Positions 2 to 50,058 of a stretch of 54,047 nt of DNA are shown piece after piece. The stretch spans positions 1 through 54,047 of the forward strand of contig NZWD01000008.1 in the NCBI GenBank assembly GCA_002698225.1, read 5' to 3'. The position numbers were made by a program, and so were the translations under genes. The notes beneath the pieces are model-generated. The model was not told the origin of the DNA. It did not search any database and worked only from the letters and a program-made list of their open reading frames with translations. The DNA comes from Methanobacteriota archaeon (GTDB lineage: Archaea; Thermoplasmatota; Poseidoniia; Poseidoniales; Thalassarchaeaceae). Each line of letters opens with the position of its first letter. The stretch's first letter is position 1.

Positions 2-514
2 GATGCAAATGTCATACTAGCTGATGTAATGGCATCAAACGGTATCATCCATGTCATCGACAAGGTTCTGATGCCACCAGCTGATGCTCCTGACACAACT
101 GGATGCGATGCTGTAATCGGAATCGACGACTCTGGTCTGGCATACGACACGCCCAATCTAGAGGTCGATGTCGGAGCCACCGTCTGCTGGATTTGGACTG
201 ATGAGTCAATGGCTCACAATGTCGCACAGATAGCCAAGGAAGGAGATACAACTCGCTACATGAGCGGAGTATACAGCGGCGAGTCAATGACCACAGTCGA
301 CTTCAGGCATACCTTCGATGTCGACCAGACCTTCAACTACATCTGCGAGCCACACGCGACTTCGGGTATGGCAGGTCAGATTGTAGTCGGTACTGGTAGC
401 ATCGATACGGTGGACAATGAGGAAGAGGACTCGAGTCTACCTGGATTCGGTGCTGGCATAGCCGCTTTGGCTATAGTTGGGGCCGTATTGATTGCAGGAC
501 GCAGGCTACGCTGA
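2..514 (+). CDS. FAS1-cupredoxin surface protein, C-terminal part (5' truncated by window)
   Basis: The listed ORF begins at an internal ATG, but the frame stays open to the window edge (DANVILADVMASNGIIHVIDKVL), which is the typical end of a fasciclin (FAS1) domain, so the gene enters from the left. After it comes a plastocyanin-like domain of about 90 residues, with the copper-ligand pattern MAHNV and later ICEPHATSGM (His, Cys, His and Met all present). The tail has a short acidic linker, SLPGFG, a hydrophobic helix and RRLR, which matches the PGF-CTERM archaeosortase sorting signal. I infer an extracellular, membrane-anchored blue-copper protein, perhaps for electron transfer. The domain assignment is strong; the redox partner is unknown. 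Confidence 0.85.
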   Translation, partial: DANVILADVMASNGIIHVIDKVLMPPADAPDTTGCDAVIGIDDSGLAYDTPNLEVDVGATVCWIWTDESMAHNVAQIAKEGDTTRYMSGVYSGESMTTVDFRHTFDVDQTFNYICEPHATSGMAGQIVVGTGSIDTVDNEEEDSSLPGFGAGIAALAIVGAVLIAGRRLR

Positions 515-33683: not shown

Positions 33684-34931
33684 ATGGGTGATGCGGTGAA
33701 CATGTGCGATGTCCTAGTTATCGGGGCCGGCCCGGGTGGTGGAAACGCTGCTTTGCAGTCGGCTAAGAAAGGCCTTTCGACCATTCTCATTGAGGATCAT
33801 CCTGCTATCGGAACCCCCGTTCACTGCGGCGAGTGCATCTCCGAGATTGCATGTCAGAATCTAGGCATCAAGCTCCCAGACCATGTCGTCAGCATGGAAG
33901 TACACGGAATTCGCGTGATTTTCCCGGACGGCACTGAGAAATGCCTCACTGAGGAGGGCTATGTCCTCGAGAAGCACCTCTTTGAGAGATGGATTGCAGA
34001 TGAGGCCATCTCTGCCGGTGCCAGCATGCACCTGAATCACAAAATCTCCTCGATGGAGAGGGTTGTGGAGGACGGTAAGTTCGCAGGCTGGATGTGCGAC
34101 GGCAAGGGAGACAACTTCCCGATTCAAGCGAAGATAGTTATCGATGCATCGGGCGTCGCTGCAGTCTGCTCGAAGTTAGTCAAACTGGACGATGACAAAC
34201 CACTCAATGAGATGGGCAAGGTAGTCGCGGGGATGCAGTACGAGATGCTGGAGGTTCCTACAGACGGGTATCTAGACTTCTACATCTGGCCAGAGTACGC
34301 CGAGAAGGGGTATCTGTGGATGATTCCTAAGTGTGATGGTAGGGCCAATGTCGGATTGGTAACCGAAGACAGGCCTCGCGCGAAGAAGGCCTTGGACGAA
34401 TTCATTGATATTACCCACTTCAAGGAGCTCGAGCAGGTTCACCCACCTTGGAAGGAGAAGGGAACTCATGCCTTTGGCGGCACAATCCCAATATCTGGGC
34501 CATTCGAGAATACTCACCACGACGGTCTGATGTTGGTGGGCGATGCGGCAGGCTTCACTTCACCCCTATTCGAGGGTGGCTCACATCTCGCTCTGAAGTC
34601 CGCAGTCTATGCGGCGGAAACCGCAGCTGCAGCAATATCCGAAGGCGATCTCAGCAGTTCTAGATTGGCTCAGTACACCAAGCTTTGGAAGGACGAGTTC
34701 CCACCCTATGACAAGATTCTCAACGGCAAGAACGCACTCTTCGATTTGACCGATGATGAAATGTCGGTGATGGCCCGATGTTTCCCCGATGAGATGTCAG
34801 ACATGGGAGTAAGCGGCAAGGCCCTAGTTGCACTCAGGCTTCTGGCTCGAAGCCCCAATCTCTACTTCAAGCGGATAGTCCCAGCTATGCTGGCCTTCGG
34901 ATACAGTCGTGCCAAGTACTACGGGTGGTGA
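33684..34931 (+). CDS. Geranylgeranyl reductase family flavoprotein
   Basis: This 415-aa FAD enzyme has the dinucleotide motif DVLVIGAGPGGGNAALQSAKKGLSTILIE, the PVHCGECISE signature of geranylgeranyl reductases, and the second FAD motif GLMLVGDAAGFTSPLFEGGSHLALKSA. Such enzymes saturate the isoprenoid chains of archaeal membrane lipids or the prenyl tail of menaquinone. With ubiD/ubiA divergent and adjacent, a quinone-tail role is as likely as the lipid role. Its 3' end overlaps ccmF by seven bases, so the two are probably co-translated. Confidence 0.93.
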   Translation: MGDAVNMCDVLVIGAGPGGGNAALQSAKKGLSTILIEDHPAIGTPVHCGECISEIACQNLGIKLPDHVVSMEVHGIRVIFPDGTEKCLTEEGYVLEKHLFERWIADEAISAGASMHLNHKISSMERVVEDGKFAGWMCDGKGDNFPIQAKIVIDASGVAAVCSKLVKLDDDKPLNEMGKVVAGMQYEMLEVPTDGYLDFYIWPEYAEKGYLWMIPKCDGRANVGLVTEDRPRAKKALDEFIDITHFKELEQVHPPWKEKGTHAFGGTIPISGPFENTHHDGLMLVGDAAGFTSPLFEGGSHLALKSAVYAAETAAAAISEGDLSSSRLAQYTKLWKDEFPPYDKILNGKNALFDLTDDEMSVMARCFPDEMSDMGVSGKALVALRLLARSPNLYFKRIVPAMLAFGYSRAKYYGW

Positions 34932-37297
34932 TCTGCATACTCCCTGCCTTGGGGCTCGTACTGCTCGTGCTCGCCGTTGTGACCAGTCTTCATCAGGTGA
35001 TGCGGCCAGAAAAGGCCGGAGATGTACTGGTCAGAAATGTCACCCTAGCCACACAAGTTTCCCCATTTGCCTTGTTGGTAGGTGCGTTTGTGGTCGATGC
35101 CTCCAGTCTTGATTTAGTGGCCAGATTCGGTGGTCAGGGACTGCCTCTGCTGTATCGTGTCTCGGCCGTTTGGGGTGGTAGAGCCGGACCACTCCTGTTG
35201 TGGGCAGCTCTGCTTGGAGTCGTGACATGGATGATGGCAGAGAAAGACAAGCCAGCTAGACTTGAGGTTCGAATCATGCATGTCTTGGTTGCATCCATTC
35301 TCCTACTGTCATGGTTACTTGACCCATTTGCCGCTGCTGGGCAGCAGCAAGGGGAACTACATCCCTTACTACAGACTGACTTGATGGTCATCCACCCGCC
35401 AATTGTATTCGCCTACTACTCGCTATGCCTCGCCACCGCGAGCGTGGCAATTGCCGGTGTAATCAGACAAGACTCCTCAGAATCGATTCACAACTCACAA
35501 CTTTACTGGGCTAGAGCCGCCTTCCTCGTAGGTACGATTGGGATCGGCCTAGGGGGCTTGTGGGCATACACAGTTCTCGACTGGGGCGGCTATTGGGCTT
35601 GGGATCCGGTTGAGACAGGATCTCTATTGCCCTGGCTCGCCCTCCTGCTGGTTATTCATGTCAGGGCCCAGTCCGGCTCGAAGGCTATTGCAGCCGCACC
35701 CGCAATCGGAATCATCTCCGGCGCGCTAGCTTTCCATGCCACTATGGTCACCCGCGCAAATGGCGTCTGGGCGTCCGTCCATGCATTCGTTGCTGATGGA
35801 GAAGGCACTCTTTCCGAGGACCCGTATCTCAGGGTCCTAGAGATCGCTGAATGGAGTCCTGTGGGTATTGAGGTTACATCGTATCTTGTTGTGATGGTTG
35901 CCATGGGCTGCTTCGCCATGTTGCATTTGGTTAGAGAGCAGAGAGCGTCAGTATCATTGGCTGGCGGACAGACCATGCTGGAGCAGAATCCTTCGATGTC
36001 AAAGATTCTGATTCTGATATTCCTCATCATCGCTCTTTGGATTGGCTCGAGCGCGATACTTGCAGTTGGATTTGCTTTGATGCTGCTGATTGTCAACGGC
36101 GACTCGCATCGACCTCCCATGCATTGGATTTCTCTGGGAGTCGTGATGATGCTGTTCTCCAGTTGGCTGTGGATTTCTGACATCCAGCAGTCAGTCGCTG
36201 CCATGGTACCCTTCCTAGCACCTTGGCTACTATCTCCTGAGAATGAGAGCGAGTTTGAATCCGTGTTATTGCCATTCTCTGACCTCTCAGCGAGAACCCG
36301 TGTGGCACGAATGACTCCTTGGTATGGAGGCACAGCATTCCTGCTGCTTACATGGCTGCTCCTAACCGTCGAGATTGACGGCCCCAGCCTCGAGGCGCAC
36401 GAGTTCTACGGAGCACCGCTACTCGGACTGCTCGCACTCGCTCTGGCACTGTACGGCTGGGGACGCTCACTCCCTGCCGACAAGGGTCCCGCTGTAGTAG
36501 GTCTGGCATTGACCGCCTCGATTACCCTCGCAGCTTTAAGCGACAAACTACCTCTACCCGGCGACCCAGAACTAGTTGTGACAAGTGGCATTACTAGAGG
36601 GGCAGTCGGTGCTTTCGTCCTGACCTGGCTACTCATTTCCCTACCTACAACCGCCAAGCAAGCCTGGCAAACAGCGAAGAGGACCATCCCTCATTTTCGA
36701 GTAGGAGGAACTGGAGGTAGAAATGCTGCCCGCGCGAGGCTCATCGGCTCGCATCTGGCGCACCTTGGGATTCTGCTACTTCTGGTGGGTCACATTCTGA
36801 CTACGACCATGCTAGACCGTTCGGACCCATCTCATCTGATCACTCTTCAGAAGGGCGAGGCAATCGAGCACGAGGGATACGAGATGGTTTTCGTAGGCAT
36901 GGAACTGATTCCCTCGGAGCATCAGGACTACGACTTTCCTGTTGGTGACGGCTTCATCGGGGTATCGATCGAAGTCTGGCAGAACAACGAGCTCATTGAC
37001 ACTCTGAGGCCGGGCATGCTACGATTCGATTCCCCCAGTGGGGCCGTAAACGCTCGCTCTGAGGTTGACAGGATGAGCAGATTGTCTGGTGATACCATTG
37101 TAATCCTTGACCTAGCCCAGTCCAACGACCTACTCAGCTCGATGATTCTTGGAGGCGTAGATGAGGTTGAGACTGTCAGGGTGACCATCTATGATTTGCA
37201 GGGCAGTCATCTGGTCTGGCTTGGCTGGGCCCTAATCATGCTTGGAGGTCTAGCGGCTCTATCAAGCGGCCGAGAAGGGGCGCAGGAAGAGGAGTAG
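34925..37297 (+). CDS. ccmF: Cytochrome c haem lyase CcmF-like protein
   Basis: The 790-aa polytopic protein handles haem for cytochrome c maturation. The haem-handling WWD-type stretch is present (GLWAYTVLDWGGYWAWDPVETGSLLPWL, ~210-235). So are the conserved CcmF histidine contexts MVIHPPIVFAYY (~155), MVTRANGVWASVHAF (~284) and SHLAHLGILLLLVGHI (~608), and the large C-terminal outer domain ending in a last helix (SHLVWLGWALIMLGGLAAL). At 790 aa it is longer than bacterial CcmF (~650). It starts at a GTG inside the reductase stop. No CcmE, CcmH or CcmABCD genes are nearby. Confidence 0.92.
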   Translation: MVICILPALGLVLLVLAVVTSLHQVMRPEKAGDVLVRNVTLATQVSPFALLVGAFVVDASSLDLVARFGGQGLPLLYRVSAVWGGRAGPLLLWAALLGVVTWMMAEKDKPARLEVRIMHVLVASILLLSWLLDPFAAAGQQQGELHPLLQTDLMVIHPPIVFAYYSLCLATASVAIAGVIRQDSSESIHNSQLYWARAAFLVGTIGIGLGGLWAYTVLDWGGYWAWDPVETGSLLPWLALLLVIHVRAQSGSKAIAAAPAIGIISGALAFHATMVTRANGVWASVHAFVADGEGTLSEDPYLRVLEIAEWSPVGIEVTSYLVVMVAMGCFAMLHLVREQRASVSLAGGQTMLEQNPSMSKILILIFLIIALWIGSSAILAVGFALMLLIVNGDSHRPPMHWISLGVVMMLFSSWLWISDIQQSVAAMVPFLAPWLLSPENESEFESVLLPFSDLSARTRVARMTPWYGGTAFLLLTWLLLTVEIDGPSLEAHEFYGAPLLGLLALALALYGWGRSLPADKGPAVVGLALTASITLAALSDKLPLPGDPELVVTSGITRGAVGAFVLTWLLISLPTTAKQAWQTAKRTIPHFRVGGTGGRNAARARLIGSHLAHLGILLLLVGHILTTTMLDRSDPSHLITLQKGEAIEHEGYEMVFVGMELIPSEHQDYDFPVGDGFIGVSIEVWQNNELIDTLRPGMLRFDSPSGAVNARSEVDRMSRLSGDTIVILDLAQSNDLLSSMILGGVDEVETVRVTIYDLQGSHLVWLGWALIMLGGLAALSSGREGAQEEE

Positions 37298-45692: not shown

Positions 45693-48335
45693 ATGCGAGT
45701 AGGTAATCGAGCCGCTGCACTTCTAGTTGTACTACTACTAGTCTCTCTACCTCATACCGTATACTCACAGTCATCCGGGATGACAGGCCGGTCCGTATCC
45801 GGCTGCACCTGCCATTCCAACACAGCCACCCTCTCACCCACTCTCAGTGGCCTCCCTTGGGGAGCAGGGGGGTACACGCCCGGATCTGCCTACTCTCTGA
45901 TTTGGGACGGTGGGCCACACATTTCGGGAGACGGCGGATTCAATCTCGATGCCACTGCCGGTTTGTGGTCCAATCTCGGATCGCAAGTTCAACTGTCTAG
46001 TGGTGAGCTGACCCACAGCAGCGACTCCCTACGCTCATGGTCAGCCGATTGGACAGCTCCTGCAGCTGGTACTGGTGATGTCACTTTCAATCTGGCAGTG
46101 CTGTATGCTAACGGCAATGGCCAGAATTCTGGAGACTCATGGGGCACTGGAACATGGACTCTCTCTGAGGCCGGAGGCTCAGGTGGCACTCCTCCAGTTG
46201 CCTCCAATGTAACCTATGTTCCCAATAGCCCGACCAAGGCCACTGGCCTAGGGGTCTCGTATGATTACCACGACGATGATGGAGACTCCGAGCAAGGTAC
46301 ACAGATCAAGTGGTGGAGGGATGGACTCAGAATCAGTGCTATCGATGATATGACCAATGTGCCCAATAACTGGATATCAAGGGGCCAGCAGTGGCAGGTG
46401 GAGGTCACTCCTTCTGATGTAAACGAGGATGGTGACCCAGTACTGCTCTCACCAGTCACTATCGGGAACACCATACCAGTAGCCAGAGATCTCTCACTAA
46501 CTCCCATCGATGCCTTGGAGAATGATGATCTTGATTTCGATTACGATTACTATGACCTCGACGGTAATCCACAGCAGAACACAGAGATTCGATGGTACCT
46601 AGATGGGGCCAGAATCGCTGAGTTAGATGATCAATCCATCGTCTCCAGCCTATGGACGCGCTCAGGCGATGAGTGGCAGGTTTCTGTAAAACCTCACGAT
46701 GGGACCGACTATGGTGACATTGTTTGGACGGCGACCATCGTCATCGGATCCTCAAACACCCAGCCATCTGCCACAGCTTACATCACACCCTCAGGTAACG
46801 CGATTACCAGCAACTCCTTGCAGGTATTAGTCGGATACAGCGACCCCGATGGCGACCCAAAAACCTCTACGGAGATTAGGTGGCTACGCGATGGCACTCA
46901 GATATCTGCATACAACGATCAGACTGTTGTACCGTCTGATGCCACATCCAAAGATCAGGAGTGGGTCGCAGAAGTGAGAGTATCTGATGGTCTGATGTGG
47001 TCTGATTGGGTTACTACAGACCCTGTCTTGATACTGAATACTCCTCCAGTTGTGACTTCTATTTCCATGCTTCCTGAAGGCGATTTGTACACTACTGCCA
47101 ACTTGACTGTAGTATGGGAACAGACCGATATAGACGGCGATTCAGAGTCCGGCAGCCAGATTCGCTGGTGGGTGAATGGTAATTGGATTCAGGACTACAA
47201 CGATATGATTACAGTACCAAATTCGGAGACTGTCAGAGACCAACACTGGGCAGTTCAGGTCATCCCCGGTGATGGAGATGGTTTTGGAACCTCGATGAAG
47301 ACGACATCTCGAGCAATACTCAATGCTCCACCGAATCCACCTGAAATCTCCCTTGGGGGTGACTTCGGGACTACAGAACTCGGGGTTCCAGATGCTCTAC
47401 ACAATTTGGTAGCTCAGCCAACATCGAACGACCCGGATGAGGAAACTGTCTTGTTTGACTACCAGTGGTCGAGGAATGGCTTCCGTGTACCTGACCTAGA
47501 CGGCCATTCAACCGTAACTTCTGACAGGCTAGAGCCTGGCCAAACATGGGAGGTTACAGTCTTCGCAAATGACCCGTGGGGACTGTCTTCCTCAGCATCC
47601 CAACTCGTTATGATAGCCAACCTACCACCAGTGGCAGATTGGTCGACCTCTCCCGAACCTGCCGTACCAGGTGCTGAGTTCTCTTTAGACGCAAGTGGAG
47701 CCATAGACCCCGATGGCGAGGTTGTAGCATGGTTCTGGACCGTCAATGGAGTGAGCCTCTCGGGTGCATCCATAGATGTCCTACTTCCTGGGGGCGTCCA
47801 TACTGTAACTCTCACGGTAATCGACGACATGGGTTCCTCAGATACCCATGAGAGCGAATTGGTACTGGGTCCAGTGAGCATAGTCTCAGATCTTAGCGCC
47901 ACTTTGGACGGTACCGAGGTCAGCCTCTCCTGGTCCGGATCTTCTTCGGAATATCGAGTCTATCGCTCCACCAGTCCAATCACAACCGTGGTTGGCCTGA
48001 CGGCTCTCGAACCAGTTCCAGCATGGGGAGAACCGATGCCTCTTGAAATGGAACCCGTCGGTGTGACAATAGACTCGCAATGGGGCGAGACCGCCCCGGT
48101 CGCCACTACTCTCTACTACGCAGTTACATCGACCGTCGACGGACTCGAGGTTGTTTGGGTTGTTGAAGGAGAGAATATGGTTAGCATAGATGCCACATCT
48201 GCTGCGGAAGCGGTCGACACGGATCCAATGGGCTCTACCAAACTACTGGTTCTGCCAGTTTCGGCAATCATGGTTCTCCTAGGGGCAGCCGCTGTTGCAA
48301 TATCGGTTACTGAGACTAGAAGGAGGTCACCTTGA
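45693..48335 (+). CDS. Surface protein: CxCH Reeler-like domain plus Ig/PKD-like repeats
   Basis: The 880-aa protein has a signal peptide (AAALLVVLLLVSLPHTVYS) and a first domain of ~130 residues with GCTCHSN near its start. It ends WTAPAAGTGDVTFNLAVLYANGNGQNSGDSWGTGTWTL, the pattern of Reeler-like/choice-of-anchor V domains that often carry a haem CxxCH. Here the motif is CxCH. Next come about five ~90-residue beta repeats (e.g. SYDPDGD, T-x-I-R/K-W-x-x-D/N-G, V-x-D-G), a PKD domain, a fibronectin-like piece and a C-terminal membrane helix (VLPVSAIMVLLGAAAVAI). First gene of a three-gene operon. Confidence 0.8.
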   Translation: MRVGNRAAALLVVLLLVSLPHTVYSQSSGMTGRSVSGCTCHSNTATLSPTLSGLPWGAGGYTPGSAYSLIWDGGPHISGDGGFNLDATAGLWSNLGSQVQLSSGELTHSSDSLRSWSADWTAPAAGTGDVTFNLAVLYANGNGQNSGDSWGTGTWTLSEAGGSGGTPPVASNVTYVPNSPTKATGLGVSYDYHDDDGDSEQGTQIKWWRDGLRISAIDDMTNVPNNWISRGQQWQVEVTPSDVNEDGDPVLLSPVTIGNTIPVARDLSLTPIDALENDDLDFDYDYYDLDGNPQQNTEIRWYLDGARIAELDDQSIVSSLWTRSGDEWQVSVKPHDGTDYGDIVWTATIVIGSSNTQPSATAYITPSGNAITSNSLQVLVGYSDPDGDPKTSTEIRWLRDGTQISAYNDQTVVPSDATSKDQEWVAEVRVSDGLMWSDWVTTDPVLILNTPPVVTSISMLPEGDLYTTANLTVVWEQTDIDGDSESGSQIRWWVNGNWIQDYNDMITVPNSETVRDQHWAVQVIPGDGDGFGTSMKTTSRAILNAPPNPPEISLGGDFGTTELGVPDALHNLVAQPTSNDPDEETVLFDYQWSRNGFRVPDLDGHSTVTSDRLEPGQTWEVTVFANDPWGLSSSASQLVMIANLPPVADWSTSPEPAVPGAEFSLDASGAIDPDGEVVAWFWTVNGVSLSGASIDVLLPGGVHTVTLTVIDDMGSSDTHESELVLGPVSIVSDLSATLDGTEVSLSWSGSSSEYRVYRSTSPITTVVGLTALEPVPAWGEPMPLEMEPVGVTIDSQWGETAPVATTLYYAVTSTVDGLEVVWVVEGENMVSIDATSAAEAVDTDPMGSTKLLVLPVSAIMVLLGAAAVAISVTETRRRSP
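48320..48327 (+). promoter_or_regulatory. Strong Shine-Dalgarno AAGGAGGT
   Basis: AAGGAGGT lies seven bases before ATG 48335, inside the end of the upstream surface-protein gene. Together with the TGATG stop-start overlap it indicates translational coupling and fixes the start of the second gene. Confidence 0.8.
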
Positions 48336-49456
48336 TGCGCTCTCGTGCGGCTATTATCACAGTCATCGCAATTCTCCTTGCTGCAGGAGCTAGTATGGCC
48401 AATCCAGGAGGAAACGGTGATGCAGATCGCGACTACACCTGTGGAGGTTCGTGCCACGGGGATCCGGCCCTGAGTACTCCTTCAGATGGGACAGTCTCAG
48501 TCTCCGTAGACAACATGGCATTCACTGGTACCGCGACAGCAGTTCATGTGACTGCGAGCGGAATGAGCCTCTCAGGAAACCGACTTTTGGGCGTATTTCT
48601 GCTTGGCTCGATTGATGGAAATGGAGATCACCCCGAGGACCATGGCTGGAGCATAGTCCAGGACCCCAACGGTGGCTCTCGCAACTATGTCGAAGTAGTA
48701 GTGCCACCAAGTGGCTCAGTAACTCTGACTTGGGTAATGCTAGCCCCACAGACTACCGGCTCCGTCAATCTGTTCGTGGAAACTCATCATGGCTCCAATC
48801 CGAACAGCAACAATTGGGCTTACTCGGGCCTCACGAGAGGATATACGGTTGATGTCCAACCAGTTCCGGAGAACCTTCCAGGCTTCGCATTTGATTGGAA
48901 ACCGGAGACCAGAGTTACCGGAGACGACAATCCCACAGTAATCAGGACGACCAACACCACTTCGGTTTCGGTCCAGTGGATGCTCGAGAACGAGTGGATT
49001 CCCCACGATGCTGTGGTGACTGGAGAAGGCGACGAATGGCTCGCTCAGATTCCTGCTACCATAGGAGATACGAGAATCCAGTATCAGGTGACGACATCGA
49101 ATGGTGACTTCTCGATAACCCAACCGTGGTTGACTGTAGCAACACAACCTGCACCATTCGATGGTGACATATGGGATGCGAGACTGCAAGGCCTCGCCCT
49201 TGCTCTCTTGGTCACTGCATTCCTATTATCCTTGCAAGCCAGACTGTCTCCTTGGAAGGGCGGACCCGCGGAGGATATGACCTCAGAGGTTGAGGCAGAA
49301 ACTGCTCCACCCGAGCCGCCCGGCCTAGAGCCTGAGGAACCTGATGAGTACTGGTCTAGACTGGTTCCGTCTGAGGATAACCCCGGCTGGCTTTGGGATC
49401 CGGTTGAGGAAGATTGGGTAGCGGATCCGCAGAACCCGCCAGTAGGTGATGAGTGA
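48335..49456 (+). CDS. Surface protein with CxxxCH Reeler-like domain and WLWDP tail
   Basis: From ATG 48335 (373 aa) there is a signal peptide (AAIITVIAILLAAGASMA), then YTCGGSCHGDP, a CxxxCH motif. A Reeler/choice-of-anchor-V-like beta domain follows (NRLLGVFLLGSIDGNGDHPEDHGW...VTLTWVMLAPQTTGSVNLFVETHHGSNPNSNNWAYSG), then a second beta domain and a membrane helix (LQGLALALLVTAFLLSLQA). The cytosolic tail is acidic and Pro-rich, ending in NPGWLWDPVEEDWVADP. The first and second genes look like distant paralogues. The third gene starts at its stop (TGATG). Confidence 0.78.
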   Translation: MRSRAAIITVIAILLAAGASMANPGGNGDADRDYTCGGSCHGDPALSTPSDGTVSVSVDNMAFTGTATAVHVTASGMSLSGNRLLGVFLLGSIDGNGDHPEDHGWSIVQDPNGGSRNYVEVVVPPSGSVTLTWVMLAPQTTGSVNLFVETHHGSNPNSNNWAYSGLTRGYTVDVQPVPENLPGFAFDWKPETRVTGDDNPTVIRTTNTTSVSVQWMLENEWIPHDAVVTGEGDEWLAQIPATIGDTRIQYQVTTSNGDFSITQPWLTVATQPAPFDGDIWDARLQGLALALLVTAFLLSLQARLSPWKGGPAEDMTSEVEAETAPPEPPGLEPEEPDEYWSRLVPSEDNPGWLWDPVEEDWVADPQNPPVGDE

Positions 49457-50058
49457 TGTTTGGTGCAGCAACATTCCATGCCGCCATGGCTGAGATTGTA
49501 GTAGGTTCAATGGTTTTGGCGAGCCTGTGTGCACTGGGTTGCGCTGCTGGTAGCATTTTCCCAAATCTCCTGGGAGCCAGACTGGCATCTGAGAGGATGA
49601 TGCTGACCATGGACAAGGCATCCATTGCCGGTGCTTGCCTAGGTCTAGCCTTCATTCCAATAGCTGCCCTAAGTGGCTCGTTCGCTGCCGACAATACTGT
49701 CACTAACGGCCTGCTGTACAACAAATTCGTTTACACCGGACTTGCTACTGGCTTTTGGGCCGCTTTCGTAATCGGCAGAATCAGACTCGGTCCCGGATTG
49801 TGGGAGCACCGCTCACTTAGCGCTCTGCAGGGAGTGACTGCTGCAATGGCCATCCTGATGACTACCATGGTTTCCTCGATTGGCGGCAAGTTGGTTCGAG
49901 GCGAGTCGCTGTTCGACATCATGCCAATCTGGCTGCCTTCCGATTCAGCCACAGTCCTGAACCCAATAGTGTCGATTGTGCTGATGCTAATCGGAACGGG
50001 TTCGCTATTCGCAGTGCTCAAACTCGGCCCGAAGGCCGAGAGGATAGAGACCGACTAG
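49456..50058 (+). CDS. Polytopic membrane protein, third gene of the surface operon
   Basis: From ATG 49456 (200 aa) the protein has four to five membrane helices (EIVVGSMVLASLCALGCAAGSIF; ASIAGACLGLAFIPIAALSG; FVYTGLATGFWAAFVIG; SALQGVTAAMAILMTTMVSSIGG; PIVSIVLMLIGTGSLFAVL). There is a His near the first helix (TFHAAMAEI) and one in the middle (WEHRSLSALQG), so haem b binding as in DUF2231-like proteins is conceivable but not shown. It overlaps the previous stop by one base and probably forms a complex with the two surface proteins. No family is assigned. Confidence 0.7.
   Translation: MFGAATFHAAMAEIVVGSMVLASLCALGCAAGSIFPNLLGARLASERMMLTMDKASIAGACLGLAFIPIAALSGSFAADNTVTNGLLYNKFVYTGLATGFWAAFVIGRIRLGPGLWEHRSLSALQGVTAAMAILMTTMVSSIGGKLVRGESLFDIMPIWLPSDSATVLNPIVSIVLMLIGTGSLFAVLKLGPKAERIETD

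Follow-up and report, generated by a model that had tools for sequence, protein, structure and literature searches.

The choice-of-anchor V (CAV) domain of Poseidoniales (Marine Group II, MGII), an abundant and uncultured group of archaea, and of some other Thermoplasmatota is likely to be an unrecognised c-type cytochrome domain of Reeler fold, its haem attached by the cytochrome c maturation (Ccm) system, with roles both in respiration and at the cell surface. One such domain opens the first of three genes near the end of the stretch analysed here (the window; 54,047 nucleotides of contig NZWD01000008.1, from an MGII genome, G000, of 1.19 Mb and 68% completeness). It carries the motif CTCH (CxCH), and the protein of the second gene carries CGGSCH (CxxxCH). 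We also lean, with somewhat less assurance, towards a more specific proposal: that this domain is a cytochrome c with haem on CxCH that stands in for cytochrome c1/f and, by fusion to oxidase subunit I (COX1), for the oxidase's cytochrome c donor, and that it has radiated into surface complexes. Ordinary cytochrome c would then seem to have been replaced in abundant ocean archaea by an overlooked Reeler-fold CxCH domain. If so, CAV fills a gap in MGII, in which cytochrome b, a Rieske protein and Ccm are present and no canonical bc1 complex or cytochrome c has been found; a family without a function gains one, c-type cytochromes gain a new fold, and the CxxCH rule by which cytochromes are counted in genomes is broken. 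The CAV motifs are mostly CxCH, and a scan for CxxCH would miss nearly all of these proteins. The main interest is in the CAV domains as a family and in the part they may play in respiration, and less in the operon of the window itself.

The features of gene 1 that matter to the argument are the following.
45693..48335 (+), gene 1, 880 aa: signal peptide, CAV (Reeler-fold) domain, Ig-like repeats, PKD domain and C-terminal membrane anchor.
45738..46154 (+), CAV domain of gene 1, assigned by NF041895 above cut-off, an AlphaFold2 model and the match to F-spondin reeler.
45804..45815 (+), CTCH of gene 1 (C38, C40, H41; aa 38-41), proposed haem attachment site; C/C/H invariant in 72/72.
46014..46016 (+), H108 of gene 1, the invariant second His (H85 of alignment A1, 72/72), proposed distal axial ligand.

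Gene 1 scored 82.3 bits against the NCBIfam model choice_anch_V (NF041895, curated cut-off 42 bits), with nearly the whole profile covered. The family has no assigned function, and the name choice-of-anchor V was not found in the literature searched. AlphaFold2, run on 72 CAV domains, gave a pLDDT of 82.9, and the eight best PDB matches of the gene 1 model were all the human F-spondin reeler domain (TM 0.62-0.66, E 5e-6). The predicted structure is that of a Reeler fold, the same beta-sandwich as in the eukaryotic Reeler domains of F-spondin and reelin; these, however, are only about 20% identical to CAV and have neither CxCH nor the second His at the aligned site. The Pfam Reeler model (PF02014) matched nothing in gene 1 or in the rest of its genome, and the control genomes were equally silent.

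In an alignment of 72 CAV domains (A1, numbered by its first row), C15, C17, H18, H85, W93, W97, P100 and D125 were invariant in every sequence. Orthologues of gene 2 (E <= 2e-37) were found in 45 of 60 relatives, and in the 28 that were aligned (A2) the CxxxCH motif and a second His (C19, C23, H24 and H135) were likewise invariant. The motifs are not due to chance, because both Cys, the adjoining His and a distant His are kept in 72/72 CAV domains and in 28/28 gene 2 orthologues. The original prediction of a surface haem- or metal-binding complex, made from the sequence of the window, would have fallen had these residues varied among homologues, and it came through this comparison. The spacing of the cysteines was less rigid: C-x(1-4)-CH was found in 106 of 107 distinct CAV domains (100 CxCH, 4 CxxCH and 2 CxxxxCH), the remaining domain having the second Cys and the His only. 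Outside the class (Poseidoniia), CAV proteins with canonical CTSCH or CTACH in this position were found. Bacterial CAV proteins probably carry CxxCH. A search for related loci with a single CAV domain returned archaeal relatives only, and a search for CAV on plasmids found none. A CTNCH seen in the gene 1 orthologue of locus L045 was discarded; it lies upstream of the start codon, and the true motif there is CTCH.

Two variants are worth recording. The single-Cys domain (L233, on G123:C34) reads ATCH, keeps the second His and has a Rieske-like sequence in the same locus; it is possibly a single-thioether variant. Giant CAV proteins, with an open frame of about 1,320-1,770 aa (L002, L055, L060), have CGGGSCH in G000 and G004 and CGGCH in G008; close relatives thus vary in Cys spacing at a single site, as a series made by nature.

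The fold and the conserved residues also bear on another explanation, that the two Cys are paired in a structural disulphide of the kind present in the reeler domains of eukaryotes, the His being structural or zinc-binding and CAV a domain for adhesion or assembly. The match to the F-spondin reeler domain, which has disulphides, speaks for it, as does the long Ig-like/PKD stalk of gene 1. It leaves the invariant CH and the distant His unexplained, however, L233 has lost one Cys and yet kept its His, and CxC disulphides are strained. Nor does it account for the COX1 fusions, the Rieske operon or the co-occurrence with Ccm described below, and we regard it as the least probable of the alternatives considered here.

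A link between CAV and respiration was found in the same genome, where three further places besides gene 1 score above the CAV cut-off. At one of them (L036), a single reading frame contains CAV (residues 43-183) followed by COX1 (residues 241-703) and lies between the genes for oxidase subunits II and III. The same fusion is present in G037 (COX1 468 bits), next to a subunit II that carries the CuA motif CAEYCGLDHSKM. We then took 20 further regions from 20 genomes, picked because their CAV reading frame was about 730-800 aa long, and all 20 contained a fusion of CxCH-bearing CAV to COX1 (16 in Poseidoniales, 3 in the third family of the class and 1, G083, outside the class). The arrangement recalls caa3-type oxidases, in which a cytochrome c is fused to an oxidase subunit, with the differences that CAV is joined to the N-terminus of subunit I, the caa3 fusion being on subunit II, and that CAV falls outside the class I cytochromes c. 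Loci L286 and L287 have, downstream of the CAV-COX1 frame, a second and more divergent COX1 fused to CAV, followed by a CAV frame with CLCH.

A second link was provided by locus L035, again in the same genome, in which the gene for an anchored CAV protein with CTCH is followed by those for a small membrane protein, a Rieske-type protein, cytochrome b and an Fe-S/CCG fusion. The CAV protein (L035:8770-9612) has a C-terminal anchor and a motif near its N-terminus, and its gene is directly upstream of that for the small membrane protein; it had no Pfam family match and no sequence homology to cytochrome c1 or f. The Rieske-type protein had no Pfam hit either and was assigned by its motif (CTHLCC...CICHSS). 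Relatives of the L035 CAV protein were present in 60/60 genomes searched, with at least 48% identity in 59. Of 30 loci retrieved for this protein, 28 had a Rieske sequence in the 1.5-kb flank. In its C-terminal helix anchor, its N-terminal motif and its place beside cytochrome b and Rieske the protein resembles cytochrome f and c1, but there is no sequence match, cytochrome f was not among the listed Foldseek hits, and the motif is CxCH and not CxxCH. Cytochrome f is itself mostly beta. MGII have been described as having cytochrome b and Rieske without a canonical bc1 complex (Tully 2019, PMC6336850). Two other proteins of the locus deserve mention. The small membrane protein (L035:8321-8776), whose gene separates those for CAV and Rieske, matched DUF7318 below threshold (24.7 bits) and is kept in 37 loci. 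The fusion protein (L035:3786-6578, on G000:C19) begins with a sequence resembling the C-terminal part of cytochrome b and continues with 4Fe-4S and CCG (HdrD-like) domains, which suggests that a further carrier may give electrons to this bc-type complex or take them from it.

A c-type cytochrome of this kind would depend on Ccm, for which the window itself has a gene. The CcmF placed about 8 kb from the operon by the original prediction is indeed there, and a cupredoxin lies at the start of the window.
34925..37297 (+), CcmF-type cytochrome c haem lyase, 8.4 kb upstream of the operon; PF01578 88 bits; sequence WGGYWAWDPVE.
29..514 (+), cupredoxin with C-terminal anchor, a possible electron carrier; PF00127 4.9e-14 at 113-388.

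PF01578 (CcmF/CcmC) was found in 60/60 relatives. Across a sample of 243 genomes of the phylum, it was present in 80/80 genomes with CAV above cut-off, compared to 24/163 others; outside the class the figures were 11/11 CAV genomes vs. 24/163 (Fisher p = 5e-9, not corrected for kinship). CcmE was detected less often; that of G037 carries CPSKY, and CXXXY is the archaeal CcmE type (PMC9084895). None of the 60 relatives had canonical cytochrome c (PF13442) above cut-off, against 7 positives among 14 control genomes. G037, a genome in one contig, had no plausible secreted CxxCH cytochrome (its ten CxxCH frames look zinc, Fe-S, thioredoxin-like or spurious); it had six secreted CxCH proteins, all of them CAV, and one secreted CGGACH protein. 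A weak PF13442 match in G002 (L276) was rejected: it belongs to a large protein with two CxxCH motifs that resembles the PSCyt proteins of planctomycetes, and probably stems from contamination. Cupredoxins were present in 54/60 relatives, and anchored ones like that at 29-514 may be mobile carriers of this respiratory chain.

We propose the following scheme. Ccm would attach haem to C-x(1-4)-CH, mostly CxCH, near the N-terminus of mature CAV, the putative axial ligands being the His of the motif and the invariant one some 67 residues downstream. Quinol would be oxidised at cytochrome b/Rieske, beside which the C-terminally anchored CAV protein would take the role of c1/f; cupredoxin may shuttle electrons between CAV proteins, and the CAV fused to COX1 would be a tethered point of electron entry, passing electrons to CuA and haem a. 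The products of the window operon would be further secreted, anchored redox proteins, namely the long CAV protein of gene 1 and the CxxxCH protein of gene 2, which belongs to a different family, together with a polytopic partner encoded by gene 3. The idea of surface proteins for haem binding and electron transfer is thus retained from the original prediction as the best-supported reading, on evidence from beyond the window: the CAV-COX1 fusions, the CAV protein encoded beside Rieske and cytochrome b, and a Ccm system for which no other substrate was found. A sensing role, suggested at the same time, gained no support. What has to be given up is the view of the motif as peculiar to an undescribed operon complex: it is the mark of an entire family of paralogues, and the roles of these are clearest in the respiratory chain.

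Two motif spacings have to be distinguished in judging haem attachment. Neither the CTCH of gene 1 nor the CGGSCH of gene 2 is CxxCH, neither protein belongs to a known cytochrome c family, and genes 1-3 had no Pfam cytochrome c match; both proteins are secreted in a genome with Ccm and have a conserved candidate for the second axial ligand. For CxxxCH, haem attachment had been said to be known in other systems, and it is: in MmcA of Methanosarcina acetivorans the archaeal Ccm system puts haem on CXXXCH and CXXXXCH, as seen by mass spectrometry (PMC11024163), so that the spacing of gene 2 has a precedent. MmcA differs from CAV in being heptahaem, with mostly CXXCH and no CXCH. The companion statement that CxCH is not a standard site agrees with the literature searched, in which we found no precedent for haem attachment to it.

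That lack of precedent is the first of several points that weigh against a haem-binding CAV domain. Altered Cys spacing leads to an aberrant persulfide linkage in Escherichia coli System I, with an extra sulfur between Cys and haem (PMC3601427). CcmE was undetected in several CAV genomes, including one that is 98% complete (G060), all of which have PF01578. Tyr replaces the second His in two CTACH CAV proteins, which are distant members outside the class, and a complete reading for other cytochromes covers one genome (G037) only. Finally, the two Cys and two His could instead serve as ligands for copper or for a 2Fe-2S cluster. CAV might accordingly be a copper (CuA-like) or 2Fe-2S (Rieske-like ligands) electron-transfer domain, still beside Rieske and fused to COX1: the ligand count is the same, Rieske box II is itself CxCH (CICH in L035), and cupredoxins are common in these genomes. 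Such a site, however, is hard to square with a Cys spacing that varies from x1 to x4, with a member that has a single Cys, with the two that have Tyr at the second His or with canonical CxxCH at the same position. It would also leave the strict link to Ccm unexplained, and Ccm without a substrate in these genomes. We consider a copper or Fe-S site improbable, though slightly less so than a plain disulphide.

The rest of the window operon was as follows.
48320..48327 (+), Shine-Dalgarno of gene 2, AAGGAGGT, 8 bases, read in the sequence.
48335..49456 (+), gene 2: signal peptide, CxxxCH soon after, two beta-sandwich domains, membrane anchor and cytosolic tail.
48440..48457 (+), CGGSCH (CxxxCH) of gene 2, proposed haem attachment site; C19, C23 and H24 of alignment A2 invariant in 28/28.
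48788..48790 (+), second His of HHG in gene 2 (H135 of alignment A2), invariant in 28/28.
49453..50058 (+), gene 3: polytopic membrane protein in which a single His (H9) is nearly invariant; 37 homologues aligned; downstream of gene 2 in relatives.

The layout described in the original prediction was accurate in its particulars, including the three-gene arrangement with TGATG coupling, the 8-base Shine-Dalgarno of the middle gene and the motifs CTCH and CGGSCH. TGATG forms both junctions, at which the genes overlap, with the ATG of gene 2 at 48335 inside the first and the start of gene 3 at either 49453 (GTG) or 49456 (ATG) in the second. N-terminal signal-like segments are present in both gene 1 and gene 2, and the order gene 1-gene 2-gene 3 is conserved in neighbourhoods of both families of Poseidoniales. 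The further claim that both secreted proteins open with a Reeler/CAV-like domain stood for gene 1 and did not extend to gene 2. The respiratory paralogues, like gene 1, are above the curated cut-off of NF041895; gene 2 is not a member, with no Pfam or NCBIfam match, choice_anch_V included, and its profile aligned with CAV only weakly in hhalign (24% probability over 40 columns only, starting at the motif). Given the missing family match and the weak alignment, the domain is established for gene 1 only. The model of gene 2 has pLDDT below 50 around the motif, and the structural relatives that Foldseek returned for it, generic Ig-like folds only, were set aside.

The window operon probably encodes accessory proteins for electron transfer at the membrane's outer face. 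A different possibility is that respiratory CAV proteins bind haem and this operon was recruited to another job, such as surface adhesion, substrate capture or assembly, with redox chemistry secondary. The long repeat stalk of gene 1 and the unclassified family of gene 2 fit such a role; there is no oxidoreductase in the operon, and gene 3 is no obvious haem b protein, since its 37 aligned homologues share a single near-invariant His. On the other hand, the ligand residues are as conserved in the window operon as in the respiratory members, and in 14 relatives from within the family CcmF shares a contig with it, though this may reflect shared synteny only. Recruitment to another job strikes us as unlikely on balance, but less so than either of the two rival readings of the Cys/His set. 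A motif in the cytosolic tail of gene 2, PGWLWDPVEEDWV (49330-49450; query 320-370), is also seen in many relatives, there at the ends of very large proteins.
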